A stretch of 64,000 nucleotides of DNA from a virus, in IMG/VR virus record IMGVR_UViG_3300036790_000198, positions 1 through 64,000 of that record; one strand, 5' to 3'. The notes under the pieces were generated by a model that ran no database searches, was not told the origin of the DNA, and saw only the letters and a program-made list of their open reading frames with translations. This document shows positions 2,710 to 64,000 of this stretch, one piece after another (the stretch's first letter is position 1; each line of letters begins with the position of its first letter). A program made the position numbers and the translations under genes.

Positions 2710-3690
2710 ATGGGCCGTCCCCGCACCACGAACGCTCACCTGCCCAAGTACGTGACCGTGATCCACGGGTCCTACTGGTATCGGCCGCCCGAGAAGGAGG
2801 CGGTCCGCATTGCCCGGGTGGGCGACGAACGCACGCTATACCAGTTCATGGCCGGCGTCGCCCTGCCGGCAGGCCCAGTCTCGACCTTAAGCGACGTCTT
2901 CGATCGGTACATCCGCGATGTGCTGCCGGGCCTCGCGCCACGCACGCAGATTGACTACCTGCGGCACCTGAAGATCCTGCGCGCCTGGTGCGGGCACATG
3001 CGGCCCGAGGAACTCCAGCCGCGGGACGTGGGGCAATTTTTGGACGTCTCCCATGGCAAGATCCAGCGCAACCGGCAGGTAGCCGTGCTCTCGGCGGTCT
3101 ACAGCAAGGCGGTGGGCCGCTGGTACCTCACCGACAAAAATCCCTGTACGAACGTCGAGCGCAATCCGAGCTCGCGCCGCAAGCGCTACGTCGCCGATGA
3201 GGAGTACGTCGCCTTCTACGAGCTGGCGAAGGAGCGTATCCGGATCGCCATGGACTTGGCGCTGATCACCGGCCAGCGCCAGGGCGACATCCTGCGCCTG
3301 CGCTGGGACGCAGTGACGCCCGAGGGGGTCAAGTTCCAGCAGGGGAAGACCGGAAAAAAGCTGATTGTCTCCTTATCGCCCACGCTCGAGGCGGTGCTCG
3401 AGCGAGCCCGGCTACTCTTGCCGCACCTGCCGCGGGAGTACGTCCTGCGCACTCGCGGCGGCCGGCCGTACACGTCAGAGGGTTTCCGGGCCTGCTGGCA
3501 ACGCACCATGCGCAAGGCCAGGAAGCTCGGCATTGTCACGGAGCGCTGGACCTACCATGACCTCAGGGCAAAAACCGTAAGCGATTCTCAGAGTCTCGAG
3601 GCGGCTTTCGAGCGGGCGGGCCATACGACCATGGCCATGACCCGAGGCGTGTACGACCGAAACTTCCGCAAGGTCACGCCGCTGAAGTAA
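2710..3690 (+). CDS. int: Phage tyrosine integrase (326 aa)
   Basis: Site-specific recombinase of the tyrosine family, expected to recombine attP with the tRNA-Lys attB. N-terminal core-binding region ~55-145 (DVFDRYIRDVLPGLAPRTQIDY). Catalytic domain: Arg in LALITGQRQGDILRLRW, a beta-hairpin Lys (QGKTGKK), HDLR box (YHDLRAKT), second His in GHTTMAMT and the nucleophile Tyr in RGVYDRNF. Length is normal. The core attachment sequence lies 64 bp beyond its stop, with repeated arm-like sites on both sides. It overlaps no neighbour and ends the + strand early cluster. Confidence 0.93.
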   Translation: MGRPRTTNAHLPKYVTVIHGSYWYRPPEKEAVRIARVGDERTLYQFMAGVALPAGPVSTLSDVFDRYIRDVLPGLAPRTQIDYLRHLKILRAWCGHMRPEELQPRDVGQFLDVSHGKIQRNRQVAVLSAVYSKAVGRWYLTDKNPCTNVERNPSSRRKRYVADEEYVAFYELAKERIRIAMDLALITGQRQGDILRLRWDAVTPEGVKFQQGKTGKKLIVSLSPTLEAVLERARLLLPHLPREYVLRTRGGRPYTSEGFRACWQRTMRKARKLGIVTERWTYHDLRAKTVSDSQSLEAAFERAGHTTMAMTRGVYDRNFRKVTPLK

Positions 3691-8464: not shown

Positions 8465-8727
8465 AGTCTCGCAAGTCGCGCCAGAAAGCTGATGCGGAGA
8501 TCGCCAGGAACCATGCAATGTTCCGCGACTGCGTGGCCGCTAGTTTCCCGAAGACATCAATAGATGGGCTGCTCCGGTGGTTCAGGATGGATGAGAGCGG
8601 CGAGAAGTACGCGCACATCGAGATACAGGAAATGTGGACGGGCTGGAATCTCCATCGCGACTTCGCGAGCCGGCAAAAAGCAGCGGATCAACTAACGGCG
8701 ACTCAAGAGAACAAAAATGGGCTGTGA
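8461..8727 (+). CDS. Conserved phage accessory protein (88 aa)
   Basis: A charged helical protein (residues ~35-60 SIDGLLRWFRMDESGEKYAH, then a Trp-containing WTGWNLHRDFA). The WxGW segment is common in short phage proteins found in these accessory operons. Function unknown. ATGA overlaps at the start; it overlaps the next gene by 11 nt. Confidence 0.6.
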   Translation: MKSRKSRQKADAEIARNHAMFRDCVAASFPKTSIDGLLRWFRMDESGEKYAHIEIQEMWTGWNLHRDFASRQKAADQLTATQENKNGL

Positions 8728-9181
8728 CATTCATTGCTATGCCGAGAAGCGATCCGGGACCGGGTGGGCTCAAGTCCAGACGACACCAAAATCCTTGGAT
8801 GTTCGGTCCTACGGGATATTCGGCTTCCTGGCAGACGTTCGGAATTATTCGGCCGTGCCGCCTATCGCCGCGCCTCGCGGCTTCCCAGCCGATGCCAGCC
8901 CGGAAGTGATAAAGAGCTATGAGTACTGGGGTGTGGACGCGCACACGCCCTCGTGGCTCACCATAGACGAGTTAGCGGCCTTCGACTACGAAGCGGAAGT
9001 TGAGGATCGCCGCTACACGCGGCAGGACGGCCCCAACTGCTTCAATGGTGGAGCAACCTGCGAGCCTGGCAGCGGAAAGAGAATGCCGTGGAGGGAGTTT
9101 TTGGGCGACCGGTTCATGGATGAACTCAAGCGCCTGAGAGACGCCGGTGCTGAGCGGCTAGTGTTCTGGTTCGACAATTGA
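8717..9181 (+). CDS. Conserved phage protein of the 'MGCDIHCYAE' type (154 aa)
   Basis: The N-terminus MGCDIHCYAEKRSGTGW is a widely conserved start of phage proteins of unknown function, in which Cys3, Asp4, His6 and Glu10 look like a metal-binding or catalytic set. An aromatic/acidic region (SYEYWGVDAHTPSWLT) follows and the C-terminus is a helix ending LVFWFDN. Full length for the type. Confidence 0.7.
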   Translation: MGCDIHCYAEKRSGTGWAQVQTTPKSLDVRSYGIFGFLADVRNYSAVPPIAAPRGFPADASPEVIKSYEYWGVDAHTPSWLTIDELAAFDYEAEVEDRRYTRQDGPNCFNGGATCEPGSGKRMPWREFLGDRFMDELKRLRDAGAERLVFWFDN

Positions 9182-9208
9182 GCAGCGGATAACTCATCCG
9201 AGTGACGC

Positions 9209-9949
9209 ATGGGCAATCTTCCCTACATCGTAAATGTGACGACTGCCGCGCCGGCGCCGATCGTCTACCCGCCGACTGGCGATGTCATTCCGCCCTTCGT
9301 GAGGCTCGAAGACTGTTTGCTGTCGCTGCGAGTTTGCCTCCTGCATGCCATGCCGCCCTACCTGAGTTTCAAGGCCGAGATGGAATCTAGCCACGGTCGC
9401 ACCGATTACTTCATCATGCCGAGGCGACGCTGGCCGAGCCCGTCAGGGACGGTCGTCATTGATTACGACTGGCTGTTGGCCTTCTGCGATCCGGGCTTTC
9501 GGCTTCCCATTCGAGAAGCCCTTCTCGCGCGCATTCAATCGGCGACCGATCTGGTGGCTGCGCACATCGACGTCAGTGAGTTCGAGCAATTCCTTGGGCA
9601 GATGATCACTATGGCCAGCCTGCATAATGCGGCGAGTTGCCTTCGGTATCAGGACACGCGCCGGCAGTCTGAGGGGCGTCCCGGCTTCGTGGCGCTCCTG
9701 AAGCACGGCATGGGGCTAGAGTCCGTGTTGCCCTTCGAGCACATCCATTGGAGCGGCACCATGAACGAGATCACCGCCGAGAGATTTACCGCCGCCGTGG
9801 GGCGCGCTCCTGAAGATGACGACCTAGACCGTTGCAACTGCCGGGATGCCGGCAAGATTGGTCATTCAGGCTGCGGCTGGTGTCAGGAGTGCGATAGGCC
9901 GCGCTTCATCTGCGGTCATCCGCTTGCAGCTCCGGAAACGTTGCGGTGA
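9209..9949 (+). CDS. Hypothetical two-part protein with C-terminal Cys-rich domain (246 aa)
   Basis: Residues 1-185 are an unrecognised, mostly helical domain. Residues ~188-245 (MNEITAERFTAAVGRAPEDD, then CGWCQECDRPRFICG) match a short stand-alone phage zinc protein I recall as 'RFxAAxGRxP...DDLxRxNC...GHxxCGWC'. The whole is one uninterrupted frame, so it appears to be a fusion; an internal ATG at the domain start could also make the short form alone. Confidence 0.6.
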   Translation: MGNLPYIVNVTTAAPAPIVYPPTGDVIPPFVRLEDCLLSLRVCLLHAMPPYLSFKAEMESSHGRTDYFIMPRRRWPSPSGTVVIDYDWLLAFCDPGFRLPIREALLARIQSATDLVAAHIDVSEFEQFLGQMITMASLHNAASCLRYQDTRRQSEGRPGFVALLKHGMGLESVLPFEHIHWSGTMNEITAERFTAAVGRAPEDDDLDRCNCRDAGKIGHSGCGWCQECDRPRFICGHPLAAPETLR

Positions 9950-53961: not shown

Positions 53962-54798
53962 TCAACTCGCTTGGCGAAGACATTCCACGACATGAATCAG
54001 TCCGAGACGCTGATGCATGTCGTTGAAGTCCTCTGAAATTTCAGGCGGCATTACCCACCGAAGTCCTGTTGCTTTTGCTGCTTGCTCGCCGGCCTTCGAG
54101 ACATCGTTATCTGCGCACACGATCGCCTCGGAGAACTGCGGCGCGACGGCGGTGAGGTTTGCGGCGCTGAAACAGACCACAATCATCCATGGACCTGGCA
54201 GGAGATCGAATGCAGCCTTGAGCGTCAATCCCGTCGCGTAGCCCTCACAGAGCGCCGTACGGCGGGCTCGGGGAGGTCCCAGTCGATGGATGCCCCCTTT
54301 CGTGCGCCCGCCCGTCAGAAACCGTTTGGTGCCGTCCTGGGCGATAGTCTGCATGCTGATGAGGCGCGAGTAATCCTCCGCAGCGCGGATCGGAATGAGG
54401 AGGAGTCCGTCATGGACGAGGCCCAATGTGTGCTTGAAGCCTTTGCTCGTGAGATAGGGGTGCGTATTCGCTTTGGCCGCGCAGAGCATGCGCATCGCTT
54501 CCCGTTCAACGGTCTTTGCCCGTCGCGCTTGTTCACGGGCAAACTGTTTCTCGCGTTCTCTTGCCTCTCGCAGGAGCTGCCGCGATTCGGCATCGTCCCG
54601 GTGAGTCTCGTCGTGCCAGAGAGCAGAAAGATTGCTCGACCAGTCGCCATAGAGTGCAAGCGTCGGGCTGATGACTCGGCACCAACCGGAACGGTTGGAT
54701 CTGCCTTTCCCGATGCCGGGGAAGCGCAGCCAGCGGCCGGGCGTGAATTCTTTTGGCGGCGTCATACCGGCGGCGAGCAGGGTTTCCTGCAGCGTCAA
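53962..54798 (-). CDS. Toprim-domain primase-like protein (278 aa)
   Basis: Residues ~165-260: ALCEGYATGLTLKAAFD contains the Toprim Glu, and EAIVCADNDVSKAGEQAA contains the DxD-like DND, followed by a lysine-rich linker (AAKATGLRWVMPPE). The N-terminal part (GIGKGRSNRSGWCRVISPTL) is like P4-type/plasmid primase accessory regions; no full polymerase core is seen. Probably a primase or primase-helicase partner. Overlaps the helicase by ATGA. Confidence 0.75.
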   Translation of the reverse strand: MTLQETLLAAGMTPPKEFTPGRWLRFPGIGKGRSNRSGWCRVISPTLALYGDWSSNLSALWHDETHRDDAESRQLLREAREREKQFAREQARRAKTVEREAMRMLCAAKANTHPYLTSKGFKHTLGLVHDGLLLIPIRAAEDYSRLISMQTIAQDGTKRFLTGGRTKGGIHRLGPPRARRTALCEGYATGLTLKAAFDLLPGPWMIVVCFSAANLTAVAPQFSEAIVCADNDVSKAGEQAAKATGLRWVMPPEISEDFNDMHQRLGLIHVVECLRQAS

Positions 54799-56336
54799 GC
54801 GGACGCTCTTTTGCGAAATGCGATATTGAGCGAGCGCACCTTATTTTCGGTCGCGCGAGTCGGGACCTCGGCCTGTGTGAAATCGAAGATCCAATCACGC
54901 TGCGGCCAATCTCCGGTTATATCCTTGAAAAGGTGCGATGCCCGTCCCTGCGGTTTCTTGGATGTCTTGGCAATCCAACACAGTTGTCGCCAAAGATGGT
55001 GGGAGTCGTGGGCAGCGACTTGCTTGCCGATCTTGATTTCGAGCATCTCGCCGGCTGATTCGGCGGCATTCGCCCGCGTCTGTTTCTCAAACCCGCAGGA
55101 CATGCACCGACGAGTGAAGGGTTGAAATCCGCACTGCGGACAGCCGTGAGACTCGCTGCCCTCCTCGTCCTTCCTGATGACCTTATCGAGCTTCTCGGCC
55201 ATATCGAGCGTAGCGAATCCTTCATGATAGACGCGTTCGAAATCTTCGCGGAATCGCCTAAAATTTCCACTGTGATCGAGAAAAATGCAGTTGACCTTTC
55301 CGGTTTCCGGCGAGCACCTAAGTCCTCGTCCCCACATCTGGATAGCAGTCGAAAGCGACTTTCGTAATGGCCGAGCGTCAATCACGCATCCGATATCCTG
55401 GACATCAAAGCCCTTAGCTAACGCCTCCACTGACACCAGAACGCGAATCTGAGAATCTGGCTTACGGAATTCCCGGAGCAATTCCTGTCGTTCCGCATCC
55501 TTGGTCTCACTTGTATAGCTTGATGCGAAGATGCCGGCTTGGTTGAAACGGCCGACCAACTCTGTGCAGTAGGCAATGTCGGGACCAAATGAGATGGTCT
55601 TTCGACCCTCCCCATGTTTGACCCATTCCGCTACTACATCGCCAATGATCTGCAGCTCTCGCTCGGAAGCTGCGCCAGCAGCCCATTCGCCATTGCTATT
55701 CGTCTTGGCGTCCGCCATGTCCGGCGTAACGCAGGTGAGAATGTGCATCGGAACGAGAATGCCCTGATCGGTCAATTCCTTCATGGTGGCCGCATTCACC
55801 ATGTGATCGAAATAGAGCCCCAGTCCCTTGGTGCAGGGTGTCGCAGTAAGGCCGACAACGGCAACTCCAGGATGCAGACCAGACAATTTCTCTTTTGTAG
55901 CTGTGAATTGTGTATGCGCCTCATCGATCACGATCACATCGGCCGGCGGCCAATACCCGCGCGCCTGGATTGTCTGAATCGAGCAGATTTGAAACGGCAG
56001 CGCATTGTTTCGGCGAGGATGATTCGCCTGGATCACGCCATGCTCCGTGAGGCCATACTCATCCGCCCGGGCGGACGTCTGGTCAATCAATGCCGTACGA
56101 TCACAGACAAAGATGGCGGTTTTGTTCTTCTTCAGCGCCTCATTAATGACGCGTAAACCGAGGAACGTTTTGCCAGCGCCAGTGGGCGCCACGAGCAACT
56201 GTCGAAAATGGCGTGCGCGCAGCCCTTCTCGGAGCTTCTCATGGGCGGTTTCCTGAAACGGACGTGGCGCCGGAAAGCATGCGCTGACGGCGCGAAGTCC
56301 TTCATACCCAAACATCGAAGACGGCTGCGCGTTCAC
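54795..56336 (-). CDS. SF2 DNA helicase with C-terminal zinc ribbon (513 aa)
   Basis: Walker A RQLLVAPTGAGKTFLGLRVI; DEAH box VIVIDEAHTQF; motif III VGLTATPCTKG; motif VI IQMWGRGLRCSPETG. C-terminus: CPQCGFQPFTRRCMSCGFEK, a zinc ribbon, then a Trp-rich end (FKDITGDWPQRDWIFDF). This resembles phage and restriction-type SF2 helicases. Placed with primase-like and replication genes, it is likely the replicative or recombination helicase of this phage. Confidence 0.85.
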   Translation of the reverse strand: MNAQPSSMFGYEGLRAVSACFPAPRPFQETAHEKLREGLRARHFRQLLVAPTGAGKTFLGLRVINEALKKNKTAIFVCDRTALIDQTSARADEYGLTEHGVIQANHPRRNNALPFQICSIQTIQARGYWPPADVIVIDEAHTQFTATKEKLSGLHPGVAVVGLTATPCTKGLGLYFDHMVNAATMKELTDQGILVPMHILTCVTPDMADAKTNSNGEWAAGAASERELQIIGDVVAEWVKHGEGRKTISFGPDIAYCTELVGRFNQAGIFASSYTSETKDAERQELLREFRKPDSQIRVLVSVEALAKGFDVQDIGCVIDARPLRKSLSTAIQMWGRGLRCSPETGKVNCIFLDHSGNFRRFREDFERVYHEGFATLDMAEKLDKVIRKDEEGSESHGCPQCGFQPFTRRCMSCGFEKQTRANAAESAGEMLEIKIGKQVAAHDSHHLWRQLCWIAKTSKKPQGRASHLFKDITGDWPQRDWIFDFTQAEVPTRATENKVRSLNIAFRKRASA

Positions 56337-59022: not shown

Positions 59023-59274
59023 TCAACTCAACCGCTGAGCGCGCTTCACGCGAAGTTTTCCACCCTTCGGGCGCGGCTTCGTTGCCGCCAACAGCTCGTC
59101 AGCAGTCAACTTCCGACCTCGCTTTTCTGCCGCAGCTATCACCGCCGGCCAAACATCAACAGGGATGCGTCCACAGTGAAGCCACTTTCGGGCGCGATCA
59201 AATGGCGCGCCAACTTCTCTGGCCATCACCGTCACGCTCGGCCAAATCTGGAATATGTCCTGAATCGCTTGCAT
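59023..59274 (-). CDS. Cro-like regulator (83 aa)
   Basis: WPSVTVMAREVGAPFDRARK and WLHCGRIPVDVWPAVIAAAE match the short phage Cro/YdaS-type helix-turn-helix family. It is leaderless: the ATG at 59274 lies 6 nt after a -10 box that it shares with operator O1. It diverges from the cI-like gene and heads the minus-strand replication and late operon, so lysis-side control is expected. Confidence 0.8.
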   Translation of the reverse strand: MQAIQDIFQIWPSVTVMAREVGAPFDRARKWLHCGRIPVDVWPAVIAAAEKRGRKLTADELLAATKPRPKGGKLRVKRAQRLS

Positions 59275-59280
59275 AGAACC

Positions 59281-59309
59281 CTTTTACAGCGGAATACTAT
59301 TCCGGTCAA
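59281..59309 (-). promoter_or_regulatory. pR-like promoter overlapping operator O1
   Basis: On the minus strand: TTGACC (59309-59304), 17-bp spacer, TAAAAG (59286-59281). The 13-bp operator O1 occupies the spacer (59291-59303). Transcription would start at or next to the ATG of the cro-like gene. Confidence 0.65.
59291..59303. promoter_or_regulatory. Operator O1 (GGAATACTATTCC)
   Basis: A perfect 13-bp palindrome (GGAATA-C-TATTCC) inside the pR-like spacer. Matches O2-O4 in size and outer bases. Confidence 0.7.
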
Positions 59310-59334
59310 GTACCGGATTACCTCGCCAGTGACG

Positions 59335-59347
59335 GGAAACGTATTCC
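59335..59347. promoter_or_regulatory. Operator O2 (GGAAACGTATTCC)
   Basis: The same outer GGAA...TTCC with a central variation. It lies 18 bp before the cI-like GTG and could affect repressor expression. Confidence 0.6.
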
Positions 59348-59364
59348 ATCTGACGCTTGGGGCC

Positions 59365-59721
59365 GTGAAGAAGCCGCCCTTGAAGCACCGCCCTCCGGGT
59401 ACCCCGGGCCGAAAGCCTGGCGGCATACCCGCGCCTCGCAGTGCGTTCAATCTCGAATTGGCCGCGCGCATCGCTCGCGCTCGTGAGCAGTACGGTGAGC
59501 GGCTTGGCCATCAAGTGACACAAGAAGAAATGGCGCGGCGCTTATCGCAGGCGGTCGGCTATAAAATCACGGCCGATAAGTACCGAAAGTACGAAGGCGG
59601 CCCGAAGCCATCGCCGATGCCTCACGATCTGCTATTCCACTTCGCCGAGATCACCGGGGTAAGCACCGGAGTGCTCCTGGCCCCCCTCCCTTTTTCCGGG
59701 CAGCGATCCCGAGCCGCCTGA
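59365..59721 (+). CDS. cI-like repressor of HTH-only type (118 aa)
   Basis: Residues ~45-85: HQVTQEEMARRLSQAVGYKI and TADKYRKYEGGPKPSPMPHD form a phage repressor helix-turn-helix of the HTH_3/XRE kind. The GTG start at 59365 is selected as the first good in-frame start after O2. There is no C-terminal Ser/Lys peptidase domain, unlike lambda CI, so induction must use another route than RecA-stimulated self-cleavage, or the protein relies on a partner. Divergent from the cro-like gene, in the direction of the early operon: lambda order. Confidence 0.75.
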   Translation: MKKPPLKHRPPGTPGRKPGGIPAPRSAFNLELAARIARAREQYGERLGHQVTQEEMARRLSQAVGYKITADKYRKYEGGPKPSPMPHDLLFHFAEITGVSTGVLLAPLPFSGQRSRAA

Positions 59722-59781
59722 ACTTTCCTCCGCCGAGGTCTTGAGACTGCTCGGTGCGTAAATTTCCGCTCGAATGCTAAC

Positions 59782-59816
59782 GGAAAACTTTTCCTTGACA
59801 GCAGGAAAAGTATTCC
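59782..59816. promoter_or_regulatory. Operators O3 (GGAAAACTTTTCC) and O4 (GGAAAAGTATTCC)
   Basis: Two 13-bp palindromic sites (59782-59794 and 59804-59816) flank the -35 box of the early promoter; the second lies in its spacer. Their match to O1/O2 defines a GGAA-WAxTW-TTCC-like consensus. Confidence 0.7.
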
Positions 59817-59823
59817 ATAGACT
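59795..59823 (+). promoter_or_regulatory. pL-like early promoter
   Basis: TTGACA (59795-59800), 17-bp spacer containing O4, TAGACT (59818-59823). It heads the + strand early operon; transcription should begin near 59830, 24 nt before the first small ORF. Confidence 0.75.
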
Positions 59824-61005: not shown

Positions 61006-61025
61006 CTCCGCCCTAAAGGACGGAG
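61006..61025 (-). ncRNA. Right-end hairpin, likely 3' part of an omega-RNA
   Basis: Hairpin overlapping the tnpB stop codon. In TnpB systems the RNA extends from the 3' end of tnpB through this hairpin into ~16-20 nt of flanking DNA used as the guide. Read on the minus strand the flank begins TACGGCTCACCTCC, i.e. phage early-operon sequence. Confidence 0.5.
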
Positions 61026-62059
61026 CTTTCCGTCAACCGGAGGCCGGCATTCCGGCCCGAGACGAGGATGTTGATAGCTGAGTTGATGTCACGATCATGC
61101 TGAACACCGCACTCAATACAACTCCACTCTCTTACTCCAAGGTGTGCGATACCTTTAGGGCCGCTGACTGCGCCGCAGCCAGAACACACCTGGGTCGTGA
61201 ATCGCTCGTCAGCCTCAATGTATTCGGCCCCGTGCCTCATGGCTTTATAGCGGAGCTGGGATCGAAACTGCGACCAGGAAGCATCGAGAACGGACTTCGC
61301 CATCCTGGTCCTGGCGAGTCCCGCTGCGTTGACATTCCCGACGATGATGCGCCGGTTTTCGCGCGCGAGCCGCGCGGACTGCTCGTGCAGGAAATGTTTT
61401 CTGGCGTTGGCGATCTTGGCGTGAATGGCGCGGGCGCGAGCCCTTCGGCCAGCACGCTGAGCCGTGGCGAGCTTCGCGGCATGCTTTGCCAAGTGTCGAG
61501 GATTCTCAATCTTCTCGCCCGTCGAGAGCGCGGCGAGCGTCTTGAGGCCCAGGTCAATCCCAACCTCGCCAGTGCCGCAGACTTGATCCTCGGCGACCTC
61601 GACGGCGAGATTCAAATACCAGCGGCCACGGGCATCCTGGGCAAAAGCACCGCTCTTGATCTGCCCGTCAATCGGGCGATGCAGCCAAAGTCTGTATCGT
61701 CGTTTGAGAAAGACAACGGCGTCGCCTTCCATTCGGATTGCGCGCGCAGCCTGGAATGGAATCCAACCGAGAGACTTCCGTCCGCGCCAGCGCGGCCGAC
61801 GTTTGTGCGCATCGCGGGAAATGGCGAACTGCTTGCAAATCGCCGTTATCGTATCGGAATGCAGCCCCAGGTCCTTGGATGTTCCCTTGGTCAAGGCATC
61901 AAAGTCATAGCCGCCCGGCCATCGCTTCCCCCATTTGCGGGCAGCCTCTTGCGTCTCGCCGCAGAAGTTCCAGACGAAGTTGCAGGCTCGCGCCATCGCT
62001 TCGAGCGCGTTGAGAACGCCTCCGGTTTCTTTGATCCGATAACGATAGGTCAAAATCAC
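61013..62059 (-). CDS. tnpB: TnpB (IS200/IS605 OrfB) RNA-guided nuclease, altered RuvC-II (348 aa)
   Basis: GTG start at 62059 (VILTYRYRI) is typical of TnpB; a longer N-terminal frame is poorly supported. RuvC-I: EVGIDLGLKTLAAL; zinc finger: VCSGCGAVSGPKGI ... CIECG; RuvC-III: HDRDINSAINIL. Where most family members have a Glu (VVEDLN-type) this protein has RRIIVGNVNAAGLARTRMAK, so the usual RuvC-II Glu is missing. A TnpB subgroup with VGDV at this place exists to my memory and may use a relocated Glu; a nuclease-dead form is the alternative. Ends GLRLTESSVL. Confidence 0.85.
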   Translation of the reverse strand: MILTYRYRIKETGGVLNALEAMARACNFVWNFCGETQEAARKWGKRWPGGYDFDALTKGTSKDLGLHSDTITAICKQFAISRDAHKRRPRWRGRKSLGWIPFQAARAIRMEGDAVVFLKRRYRLWLHRPIDGQIKSGAFAQDARGRWYLNLAVEVAEDQVCGTGEVGIDLGLKTLAALSTGEKIENPRHLAKHAAKLATAQRAGRRARARAIHAKIANARKHFLHEQSARLARENRRIIVGNVNAAGLARTRMAKSVLDASWSQFRSQLRYKAMRHGAEYIEADERFTTQVCSGCGAVSGPKGIAHLGVREWSCIECGVQHDRDINSAINILVSGRNAGLRLTESSVL

Positions 62060-62130
62060 ATGCAAATCATAACACAGGAGCGGCGCTTCCTTCCCGGCAT
62101 TCATGCCGGGACTTCCGCGCCGAATATCAG

Positions 62131-62389: not shown

Positions 62390-63166
62390 ATGAACGCAAT
62401 AGTCCATGCCGAGCCTGTCGCGAATGCGCCGGCCGATTCCCGCGCTTTGATGACACTCATCGAACGCGCCGCGACCAGTCCAGACTTCGACATGGACAAG
62501 TTGCAGAAGCTTCTCGATCTGAAAGAGAGATGGGACGCGAACGAGGCGCGCAAGGCTTACACCTCCGCCATGGCCGCTTTCAAAGCGAACGCGCCGGAGA
62601 TCGTGAAGGACAAGCACGTCAAATTCCAGACCTCCAAGGGAGTCACGGAATACGATCACGAGACCCTTGGAAATGTCTGCAAGGAAGTTATCAAGGGCCT
62701 GGCTCAACACGGCATCAGTCACCGATGGGAACTCGCGCAAAACGATGCGCGCGTCAAGGTGACGTGTATCCTCACTCATGCTCAAGGCCATAGTGAGAGC
62801 ACGAGTCTTCATTCTGCACCGGATGACTCTGGCGGCAAGAATTCCATTCAGGCCATTGGGTCGGTCGTAAAGTACCTCGAAAGATATACGCTCCTCGCCG
62901 CGACCGGACTCGCGCCGATGGATGCGGAGGATGATGACGGACGAGACTCCGGTCCGAAGGCCGAAACCATCACGGAGAAGCAAACAGCGGACCTCAAGGC
63001 GCTCATCACCGAAGGCGGCGGCGACATGGCGAAGGCGCTTCGATTCCTCCGCATCAATTCCCTCGCGGAGATTCCGGCCAAGAACTTCGAGCCGGTGGTC
63101 GCGCAGATCAAATCCGTGAACGCTGCGAGAGATCGCGAGGATCGCGCGCGAAGGGGAGCGAAATGA
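62390..63166 (+). CDS. erf: ERF family single-strand annealing protein (258 aa)
   Basis: ERF recombinases anneal single strands for phage recombination and genome circularisation. DFDMDKLQKLLDLKERWDAN and ARKAYTSAMAAFKANAPEIV are the family N-terminus; GGKNSIQAIGSVVKYLERYT is the core signature. A good RBS (GGGGAAACAGA) precedes ATG 62390. The C-terminus (KSVNAARDREDRARRGAK) is basic. Partners: the YqaJ exonuclease two genes on. Confidence 0.88.
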   Translation: MNAIVHAEPVANAPADSRALMTLIERAATSPDFDMDKLQKLLDLKERWDANEARKAYTSAMAAFKANAPEIVKDKHVKFQTSKGVTEYDHETLGNVCKEVIKGLAQHGISHRWELAQNDARVKVTCILTHAQGHSESTSLHSAPDDSGGKNSIQAIGSVVKYLERYTLLAATGLAPMDAEDDDGRDSGPKAETITEKQTADLKALITEGGGDMAKALRFLRINSLAEIPAKNFEPVVAQIKSVNAARDREDRARRGAK

Positions 63167-63840
63167 CAATGACGGCGGCGGCCGTGACGGCCAGATACGC
63201 CTCGCGTATCGGCGAGCGCCATGGTGATCTTGTCCTACTGTCTATCTCCGATAAGCGTGGGGACGGCAATAGATTCTACGGCGTCTTCCGATGCTCCTGC
63301 GGAAACGAAGTTAATTTTGATCTCGGGCGCACTCTTCGCGGCTCAAAAAGAACTCATTGCGGATGTCAGACGGATCACGGCAAAGGTAGCCGAACGCATG
63401 GGATGCGAAGATCTACCGAGTATTCATCTTGGCAGGCAATGAAGAGGCGCTGCCTAGATCAGAATGATAAGGACTATCCACGATACGGCGGCTCCGGAGT
63501 GACGGTTGACGCTGCGTGGGCCGAGTCTTTTGAGTTGTTCTATGCCCATATTGGCGCTCGTCCGCGCGGGACCACTCTGGATCGCAAAGACAATTCAAAA
63601 GGATACGAGGCGGGTAACGTTCGCTGGGCAACCGCAAGAGAGCAGCAATCAAATCGTCGTGATAGTTGGTTTGTCCAGATTGGAGATAAGATATTCCAAT
63701 CCCAAGAAGAAGCCGCCGCAGCTTATGGAATATCGGCAACGACAATTATTCGCTGGTGTGAGGGATATACCGATAGCCGCCGCATCAATTCCGGTTTTCG
63801 TCCTCCGCGAGATAACTGCCGCAGATGGAGGAAATATTAA
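63163..63840 (+). CDS. HNH-like homing endonuclease with C-terminal NUMOD-like helix (225 aa)
   Basis: HGMRRSTEYSSWQAMKRRCL, YGGSGVTVDAAW, RPRGTTLDRKDNSKGYEAGN and NVRWATAREQQSNRRD are the strings of free-standing phage HNH-type homing endonucleases. The N-terminal ~65 residues have a CGNEVNFDLGRTLRGS-like zinc module (FRCSCG, THCGC). The C-terminus (FQSQEEAAAAYGISATTIIR) is a NUMOD1-like DNA-binding helix. It has been inserted between erf and the exonuclease without disturbing either. Start 63163 (ATGA) or 63169. Confidence 0.75.
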   Translation: MTMTAAAVTARYASRIGERHGDLVLLSISDKRGDGNRFYGVFRCSCGNEVNFDLGRTLRGSKRTHCGCQTDHGKGSRTHGMRRSTEYSSWQAMKRRCLDQNDKDYPRYGGSGVTVDAAWAESFELFYAHIGARPRGTTLDRKDNSKGYEAGNVRWATAREQQSNRRDSWFVQIGDKIFQSQEEAAAAYGISATTIIRWCEGYTDSRRINSGFRPPRDNCRRWRKY

Positions 63841-64000
63841 TGACCGTGACAATTACAGACTGCGATCAAGGATCAGATGCGTGGTTTTCGGCCAGACTAG
63901 GCGTGCCCACGGCGTCGGAGTTTCAGACTCTCATCGCCAAGGGGCGTAGTGGCGGCGAGTCAGTCGGACGACGCAAGTACCTTCTCTCCAAGGCCGGGGA
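63840..64000 (+). CDS. YqaJ-like exonuclease, 3' truncated by window edge
   Basis: TITDCDQGSDAWFSARLGVP and TASEFQTLIAKGRSGGES are the N-terminal part of the YqaJ/lambda-exonuclease family, which digest one strand for the ERF annealing protein. Only 53 codons are visible; catalytic Asp/Glu lie outside the window. Start ATG 63840 overlaps the previous stop (TAATG). Confidence 0.8.
   Translation, partial: MTVTITDCDQGSDAWFSARLGVPTASEFQTLIAKGRSGGESVGRRKYLLSKAG

Follow-up and report, generated by a model that had tools for sequence, protein, structure and literature searches.

A predicted lambda-type immunity region with 13-bp operators in a family of metagenomic phages

In phage lambda, three OR operators lie between the divergent genes cI and cro, the OL operators lie beyond cI, and the operators overlap the promoters PR, PL, and PRM. 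The replication genes are under PR and the recombination genes under PL, and the CI mRNA is leaderless. Here, we analyze a region of similar layout in a viral DNA of 64,000 nucleotides (nt), positions 1 to 64,000 of the 67,425-bp IMG/VR record IMGVR_UViG_3300036790_000198 ("the window" always means this whole stretch). An earlier note, made from the sequence alone, had recognized a lambda-type immunity region at 59275-59823. In our assessment, this region very probably serves a temperate phage as a lysis/lysogeny switch of the lambda type, for which we infer binding by both encoded regulators, the affinity order, cooperativity, and the assignment of proteins to sites. The family on which our analysis is based has 11 members, namely the window and the regions L004, L007, L008, L009, L011, L022, L023, L025, L026, and L027.

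The likeness to lambda includes the divergent cI/cro pair with OR between the genes, OL on the far side of cI at an early promoter with the orientation of cI, the overlap of the operators with PR, PL, and PRM, the position of replication genes under PR and of recombination genes under PL, and a cI mRNA that is predicted to be leaderless. The gene order and the paired operator sets of the earlier lambda comparison hold, whereas a lambda-type C-terminal repressor domain is missing. In contrast to the 17-bp operators of lambda, the operators are 13-bp elements with the consensus GGA-N7-TCC across the wider family, the 118-amino-acid (aa) repressor lacks an autocleavage/oligomerization domain, OL consists of two sites (with a third in L009 alone), and the cro mRNA is also predicted to be leaderless. 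We regard the system as a variant of the lambda switch, because the repressor lacks a domain that is central to the lambda mechanism and because the operators form a new short class.

The immB regions of N15, phiKO2, and PY54 are the second relevant comparison. The cro mRNA of PY54 is leaderless, as predicted here, and its OR3 operator comprises 16 bp (PMC4488713). The Cro-like protein of the window matches N15 Cro in its fold, but the 16-bp operator sets these systems apart by length, and the recombination and replication gene content of the window is lambda-like, with no N15-type repressor among the matches.

All four 13-mers of the earlier note are present, starting at 59291, 59335, 59782, and 59804 (Table 1), and they are the only GGAAN5TTCC sites of the window, for which shuffling gives an expectation of 0.78. 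None of 100 shuffles of the window contained four such sites, and by Poisson arithmetic with 0.78 sites per 64 kb, the chance of four sites within 526 bp is about 1e-10. The confinement of the sites, for which a check had been proposed, was confirmed by a scan of the entire 67,425-bp record, in which the motif was found at the same four positions and nowhere else. With an operator matrix derived from the relatives only, the four sites ranked 1, 2, 4, and 5 among all 13-mers of the record. The description as four near-identical palindromes needs some correction, as GGAAACGTATTCC is only partly symmetric (4/6 pairs) and as the site formerly termed O2 is the equivalent of OR3. Likewise, the four sites stand, but the 2+2 layout becomes 3+2 with a weak candidate OR2, GGATTACCTCGCC, which starts at 59315 and reaches only rank 36-57 by the score of the relatives' matrix. 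This slot holds an intact GGA-N7-TCC operator in L009, L011, L022, L023, and L026. The predicted operator layout is therefore that of three OR sites overlapping PR and PRM, with OR1 and OR3 clear and OR2 degenerate in the window, and of two OL sites, which together with PL form a cluster at 59782-59823 that is kept in relatives. A search for a third OL site in the window found none.

With respect to the promoters, the outer sites are located in the 17-bp spacers of TTGAC(A/C) promoters, exactly as had been claimed: GGAAAAGTATTCC in PL with its TTGACA and GGAATACTATTCC in PR with its TTGACC. The PR -10 element of the window is separated from the cro ATG by 6 nt, and the corresponding distance is 5-8 nt in the members with a readable PR. 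On the other side, GTGAC(T/G) directly precedes OR3 in the window, L004, L011, and L022 (in L023, the same slot is used), and the end of OR3 is exactly 17 nt from the cI start codon in these four regions. The predicted PRM start coincides with the start codon. Because of these spacings between -10 positions and start codons, both the cro and the cI mRNA are predicted to be leaderless.

The strongest evidence for functional operators of one coherent family is the outcome of a scan that used no protein information. Searches of IMG/VR with the CI or the Cro protein of the window alone returned no relatives, and neither did two scans of genome contigs. A scan for two close GGAAWANTWTTCC sites gave five matches, of which L004 was the only relative and had the same PL element (L001, L002, L003, and L005 were unrelated). 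Independently, a profile of two Cro-like proteins found L007, L008, L009, and L011, whose regions have the same layout with GGAT- and GGAC-type operators. From this shared layout, it was predicted that the element GGAN7TCC-TTGAC-N4-GGAN7TCC should by itself identify such regions. When IMG/VR was scanned for this PL element, eight contigs were obtained (L004, L009, L022, L023, L024, L025, L026, and L027), and seven of them carry a divergent pair of Cro-like and short CI-like genes at the expected place, including five new regions (L022, L023, L025, L026, and L027). The eighth, L024, matches by chance within a gene.

The geometry of these regions is rigid. In intact regions, the cro start is followed at 16-18 nt by OR1, 23-24 nt further on by OR2, and another 20 nt further on by OR3, and 17 nt separate OR3 from the cI start. 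The cro and cI start codons are 88-90 nt apart in 8/10 regions; L008 and L027 are exceptions, and in L025 the distance is preserved, but the OR3 slot is not. The OL pair is spaced by 22-23 nt among the members. In L026, an additional upstream site, GGATTGCCTTTCC, was discarded, as it seems to belong to a terminator hairpin. In L007 (IMGVR_UViG_3300048784_000109), a C-terminal remnant is all that is left of cI, with operators and PL retained, and this phage is possibly a natural clear-type derivative. The lambda OR/OL reading of the earlier note is upheld by the DNA-only scan, the rigid spacing, the folds of Cro and CI, and the early gene content. It was in principle conceivable that the sites are chance palindromes or belong to a host transcription factor, as 13 bp is short and a similar 13-mer exists at position 9187; this idea has next to nothing left in its favor, since it is already contradicted by the shuffles, by the slots kept in 10 other phages, and by the gene pairs that the PL element predicted in 7/8 cases. 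The 13-mer in question (GGATAACTCATCC, 9187-9199) scores as high as true operators with the relatives' matrix and is situated in the 27-bp gap between the open reading frames (ORFs) 8717-9181 and 9209-9949; it may be a sixth operator or a product of chance.

The family also offers a view on which protein reads the operators, as base 4 of the operator varies. The window and L004 have A at this position, L009, L011, L022, L023, and L026 have T, and L007, L008, L025, and L027 have C, either exclusively or together with T. Single copies in the OR2/OR3 slots or outlying copies break the pattern, such as OR3 of L011 and L022. The recognition helix of Cro reads DxARKW in the A group, and the alanine position is occupied by valine in the T group (DTV) and in L007, L008, and L027; the L025 Cro is too diverged for a confident helix alignment. 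For CI, the helix sequence is D(K/E)YRKYEGG in the A group; the T group has D(T/S)Y. Base 4 changes in step with both recognition helices, which suggests that the two proteins recognize a common set of sites. In the Cro tree, L004 groups with L022 and not with the window (89/88), whereas in the CI tree it groups with the window (95/96). As the trees disagree, the match of Cro A28 with GGAA operators does not follow the Cro tree and is not simply due to descent, although branch support is less than full and few members were sampled. The different nearest relatives of the L004 cro and cI genes suggest either gene exchange between immunity regions or a convergence of Cro specificity. PY54 Cro binds only OR3 despite a lambda-like immunity region (PMC4488713), and in a similar manner one protein alone could read GGA-N7-TCC here, for example the repressor at all five sites, with the Cro-like protein acting elsewhere or at one site. 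We consider this possible but rather unlikely, because base 4 co-varies with both helices and because both GGAA members have Cro A28 even though their Cro proteins group apart.

Both regulator ORFs of the earlier note, with 118 aa (GTG 59365) and 83 aa (ATG 59274), were confirmed, and their homologues are arranged alike. The 83-aa protein has the features of a Cro: it is a small helix-turn-helix (HTH) protein with a predicted Cro fold that is encoded divergently from cI. Its structure model has a predicted local distance difference test (pLDDT) score of 79, and the best PDB match, with a probability of 1.00, is Cro of the Xylella prophage Xfaso 1 (3bd1), followed by N15 Cro. The sequence identity to Xfaso 1 Cro is about 20%, and the window protein differs by a longer basic C-terminal tail. 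With the NCBIfam model carph-isopro (NF046037), the window Cro scores 30.6 bits, which is under the curated 38-bit cut-off, and the cut-off is passed by L007 (49.2 bits), L008 (39.4 bits), and L009 (43.6 bits). Cro-like matches were also found in the named phages Tetraselmis virus S20/SI1, Microcystis Mwe-JY08, and Pseudanabaena Pan4, but these lack the operators and were not included. The partner of the Cro-like protein is a LexA-like repressor in Mwe-JY08 (L019) and a short 111-aa repressor in Pan4 (L020), and differing palindromic sequences are present between the two genes in both cases. Weak plasmid matches were obtained from Thioclava to Cro and from Nocardia farcinica to the L026 CI.

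The AlphaFold2 model of the CI-like repressor has a pLDDT of 79.7, and Foldseek matched it to 434 R and to the N-terminal domains of lambda CI and TP901-1 CI, with which it shares the lambda-repressor-type HTH fold without having a C-terminal domain. No match to an S24/LexA-like peptidase or oligomerization domain was found for the 118-aa repressor in Pfam, PHROGs, or NCBIfam, and RecA-stimulated self-cleavage is therefore not available to it. Family repressors have lengths of 85-124 aa, and an N-terminal arm of about 24 residues that is rich in G, P, and R is present in the window and L004 CI.

In a lysogen, the repressor would occupy OR1, cooperatively OR2, and OL1/OL2. As the strong sites are in or beside the promoter spacers, this binding would shut PR, and thus cro and the replication genes, as well as PL with the recombination genes. 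As OR3 is inside the weak PRM, high levels of CI, or Cro in lytic growth, would turn CI off. Alternatively, the two genes could be a repressor-antirepressor or a simple autoregulatory pair, P2-like or toxin-antitoxin-like, in which case the resemblance to lambda would concern the layout only and there would be no bistable CI/Cro switch. Such a pair appears improbable, since two operator clusters are found on two early promoters, PL and PR lead to recombination and replication genes, respectively, no toxin-like gene is seen in the pair, and the Cro-type fold is matched, although the repressor is short and without a C-terminal domain, just as the P2 C repressor, and the HTH fold is common to many XRE regulators.

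Several points weigh against our interpretation of the region as a lambda-type switch. The OR2 copy of the window is degenerate, and PRM has no good -10 element. The repressor is without the domain behind the dimer contacts and cooperativity of lambda CI, so that cooperative binding is unsupported. The structure searches with the Cro-like and CI-like models both gave no match with E<0.001, the probabilities of the leading matches being 0.9-1.0. The co-variation was seen in a set of 11 members with few changes. Each relative is a metagenomic contig, and CI searches among named phages and plasmids returned no repressor relative that has been named and handled experimentally.

An additional aspect concerns the C-terminus of CI. 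The L011 CI ends in frame with LTALVGNDVLALLERIPL, and similar tails are encoded out of frame in the window (+1) and in L004 and L022 (-1). The score of the tail match was reached in 1/2000 shuffles for the window and in 0/2000 for L004 and for L022. The heptamer C CCT TTY is the point at which the frames diverge in all three, and in L022 a stop in the -1 frame just upstream limits a shift to the heptamer or later. Of the proline codons in window genes, 9% are CCT, and in the 7,890 codons of 16 other genes the heptamer was not found in frame. L004 and L022 thus combine an in-frame X XXY YYZ heptamer with a conserved -1 frame, whereas the window has the heptamer but a +1 tail. An RNA structure search detected a strong hairpin directly 3' of the heptamer in L004 (z -2.9) and no stimulatory structure after the heptamer in the window or L022. 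In the available part of a review on frameshifting, neither a CCCUUU site nor a phage repressor case is described. The tails of L004 and L022 look like programmed frameshifting, which we take as a lead, and the window would need the opposite direction. Tentatively, and with the balance on the side of doubt, cI may be recoded, with slippage at C CCU UUY (-1 in L004 and L022, +1 in the window at the same TTT T run) yielding a minority repressor that carries a conserved helical tail, LT-x-A-x-VL-x-LL, and with short and long CI differing in dimerization or cooperativity. Assembly indels or loss of the tail are also possible origins of the out-of-frame tails.

Table 1. Coordinates of the immunity region and of other features in the window
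Feature	Position	Strand	Details
cro-like gene	59023..59274	-	83 aa, ATG 59274; homologues at same place in 10 other phages
PR promoter of cro	59281..59309	-	-35 TTGACC 59309-59304, 17-nt spacer, -10 TAAAAG 59286-59281; same arrangement in relatives
Operator OR1	59291-59303	.	GGAATACTATTCC; in PR spacer; slot occupied in relatives
Candidate operator OR2, degenerate	59315-59327	.	GGATTACCTCGCC; between OR1 and OR3
Weak PRM promoter of cI (putative function)	59329..59357	+	-35-like GTGACG 59329-59334, 17-nt spacer with OR3, -10 position GACGCT 59352-59357
Operator OR3	59335-59347	.	GGAAACGTATTCC; in PRM spacer
cI-like repressor gene	59365..59721	+	118 aa, GTG start; lambda-repressor-type HTH; 63% identical to L004 homologue
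C CCT TTT heptamer in cI	59688..59694	+	Position shared by L004 and, in the form C CCT TTC, by L022
Out-of-frame (+1) cI C-tail	59699..59761	+	GSDPEPPELSSAEVLRLLGA*; resembles the in-frame tail of L011 and the -1 tails of L004 and L022
Operator OL2	59782-59794	.	GGAAAACTTTTCC; adjoins PL -35
PL promoter	59795..59823	+	TTGACA-17-TAGACT; kept in L004, L007, L009, L022 and others
Operator OL1	59804-59816	.	GGAAAAGTATTCC; in PL spacer
Erf-family single-strand annealing protein, PL operon	62390..63166	+	Pfam ERF 1.5e-14; PHROG 155 4e-31
YqaJ-type exonuclease gene start	63825..64000	+	63825-64472 of record, past window end; Pfam YqaJ 5.1e-15 on L017 5826-6470
DNA helicase, PR operon	54795..56336	-	PHROG 16, 1.3e-72
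Toprim primase-like gene, PR operon	53962..54798	-	PHROG 2249, 3.2e-39; Pfam Toprim_3
Tyrosine integrase	2710..3690	+	PHROG 1, 2.8e-47

The predicted integrase is the mark of a temperate lifestyle. Under PL, small early ORFs are followed by the Erf gene and then the YqaJ gene, and under PR, cro is followed by the helicase and Toprim primase genes. Terminase and portal genes are present in the phage, and the best terminase matches, including those from phages of Brevundimonas, Roseobacter, Dinoroseobacter, and cyanobacteria, are 48-56% identical. The PL operon also contains, at 61013-62104, a lone TnpB (OrfB_IS605) gene of the opposite orientation, which separates the small early genes from erf.

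The region poses the question of how a switch with the lambda layout works and is induced without a cleavage/oligomerization domain, and if cI is indeed recoded, the lysogeny decision would depend on the frequency of frameshifting. With its 11 natural variants, the predicted lambda-type immunity family is one in which changes of the operator sequence are accompanied by changes in both recognition helices. It provides specificity predictions, namely that alanine at Cro position 28 should go with GGAA operators and valine with GGAT or most GGAC operators, and it also predicts which of these phages should be hetero-immune.
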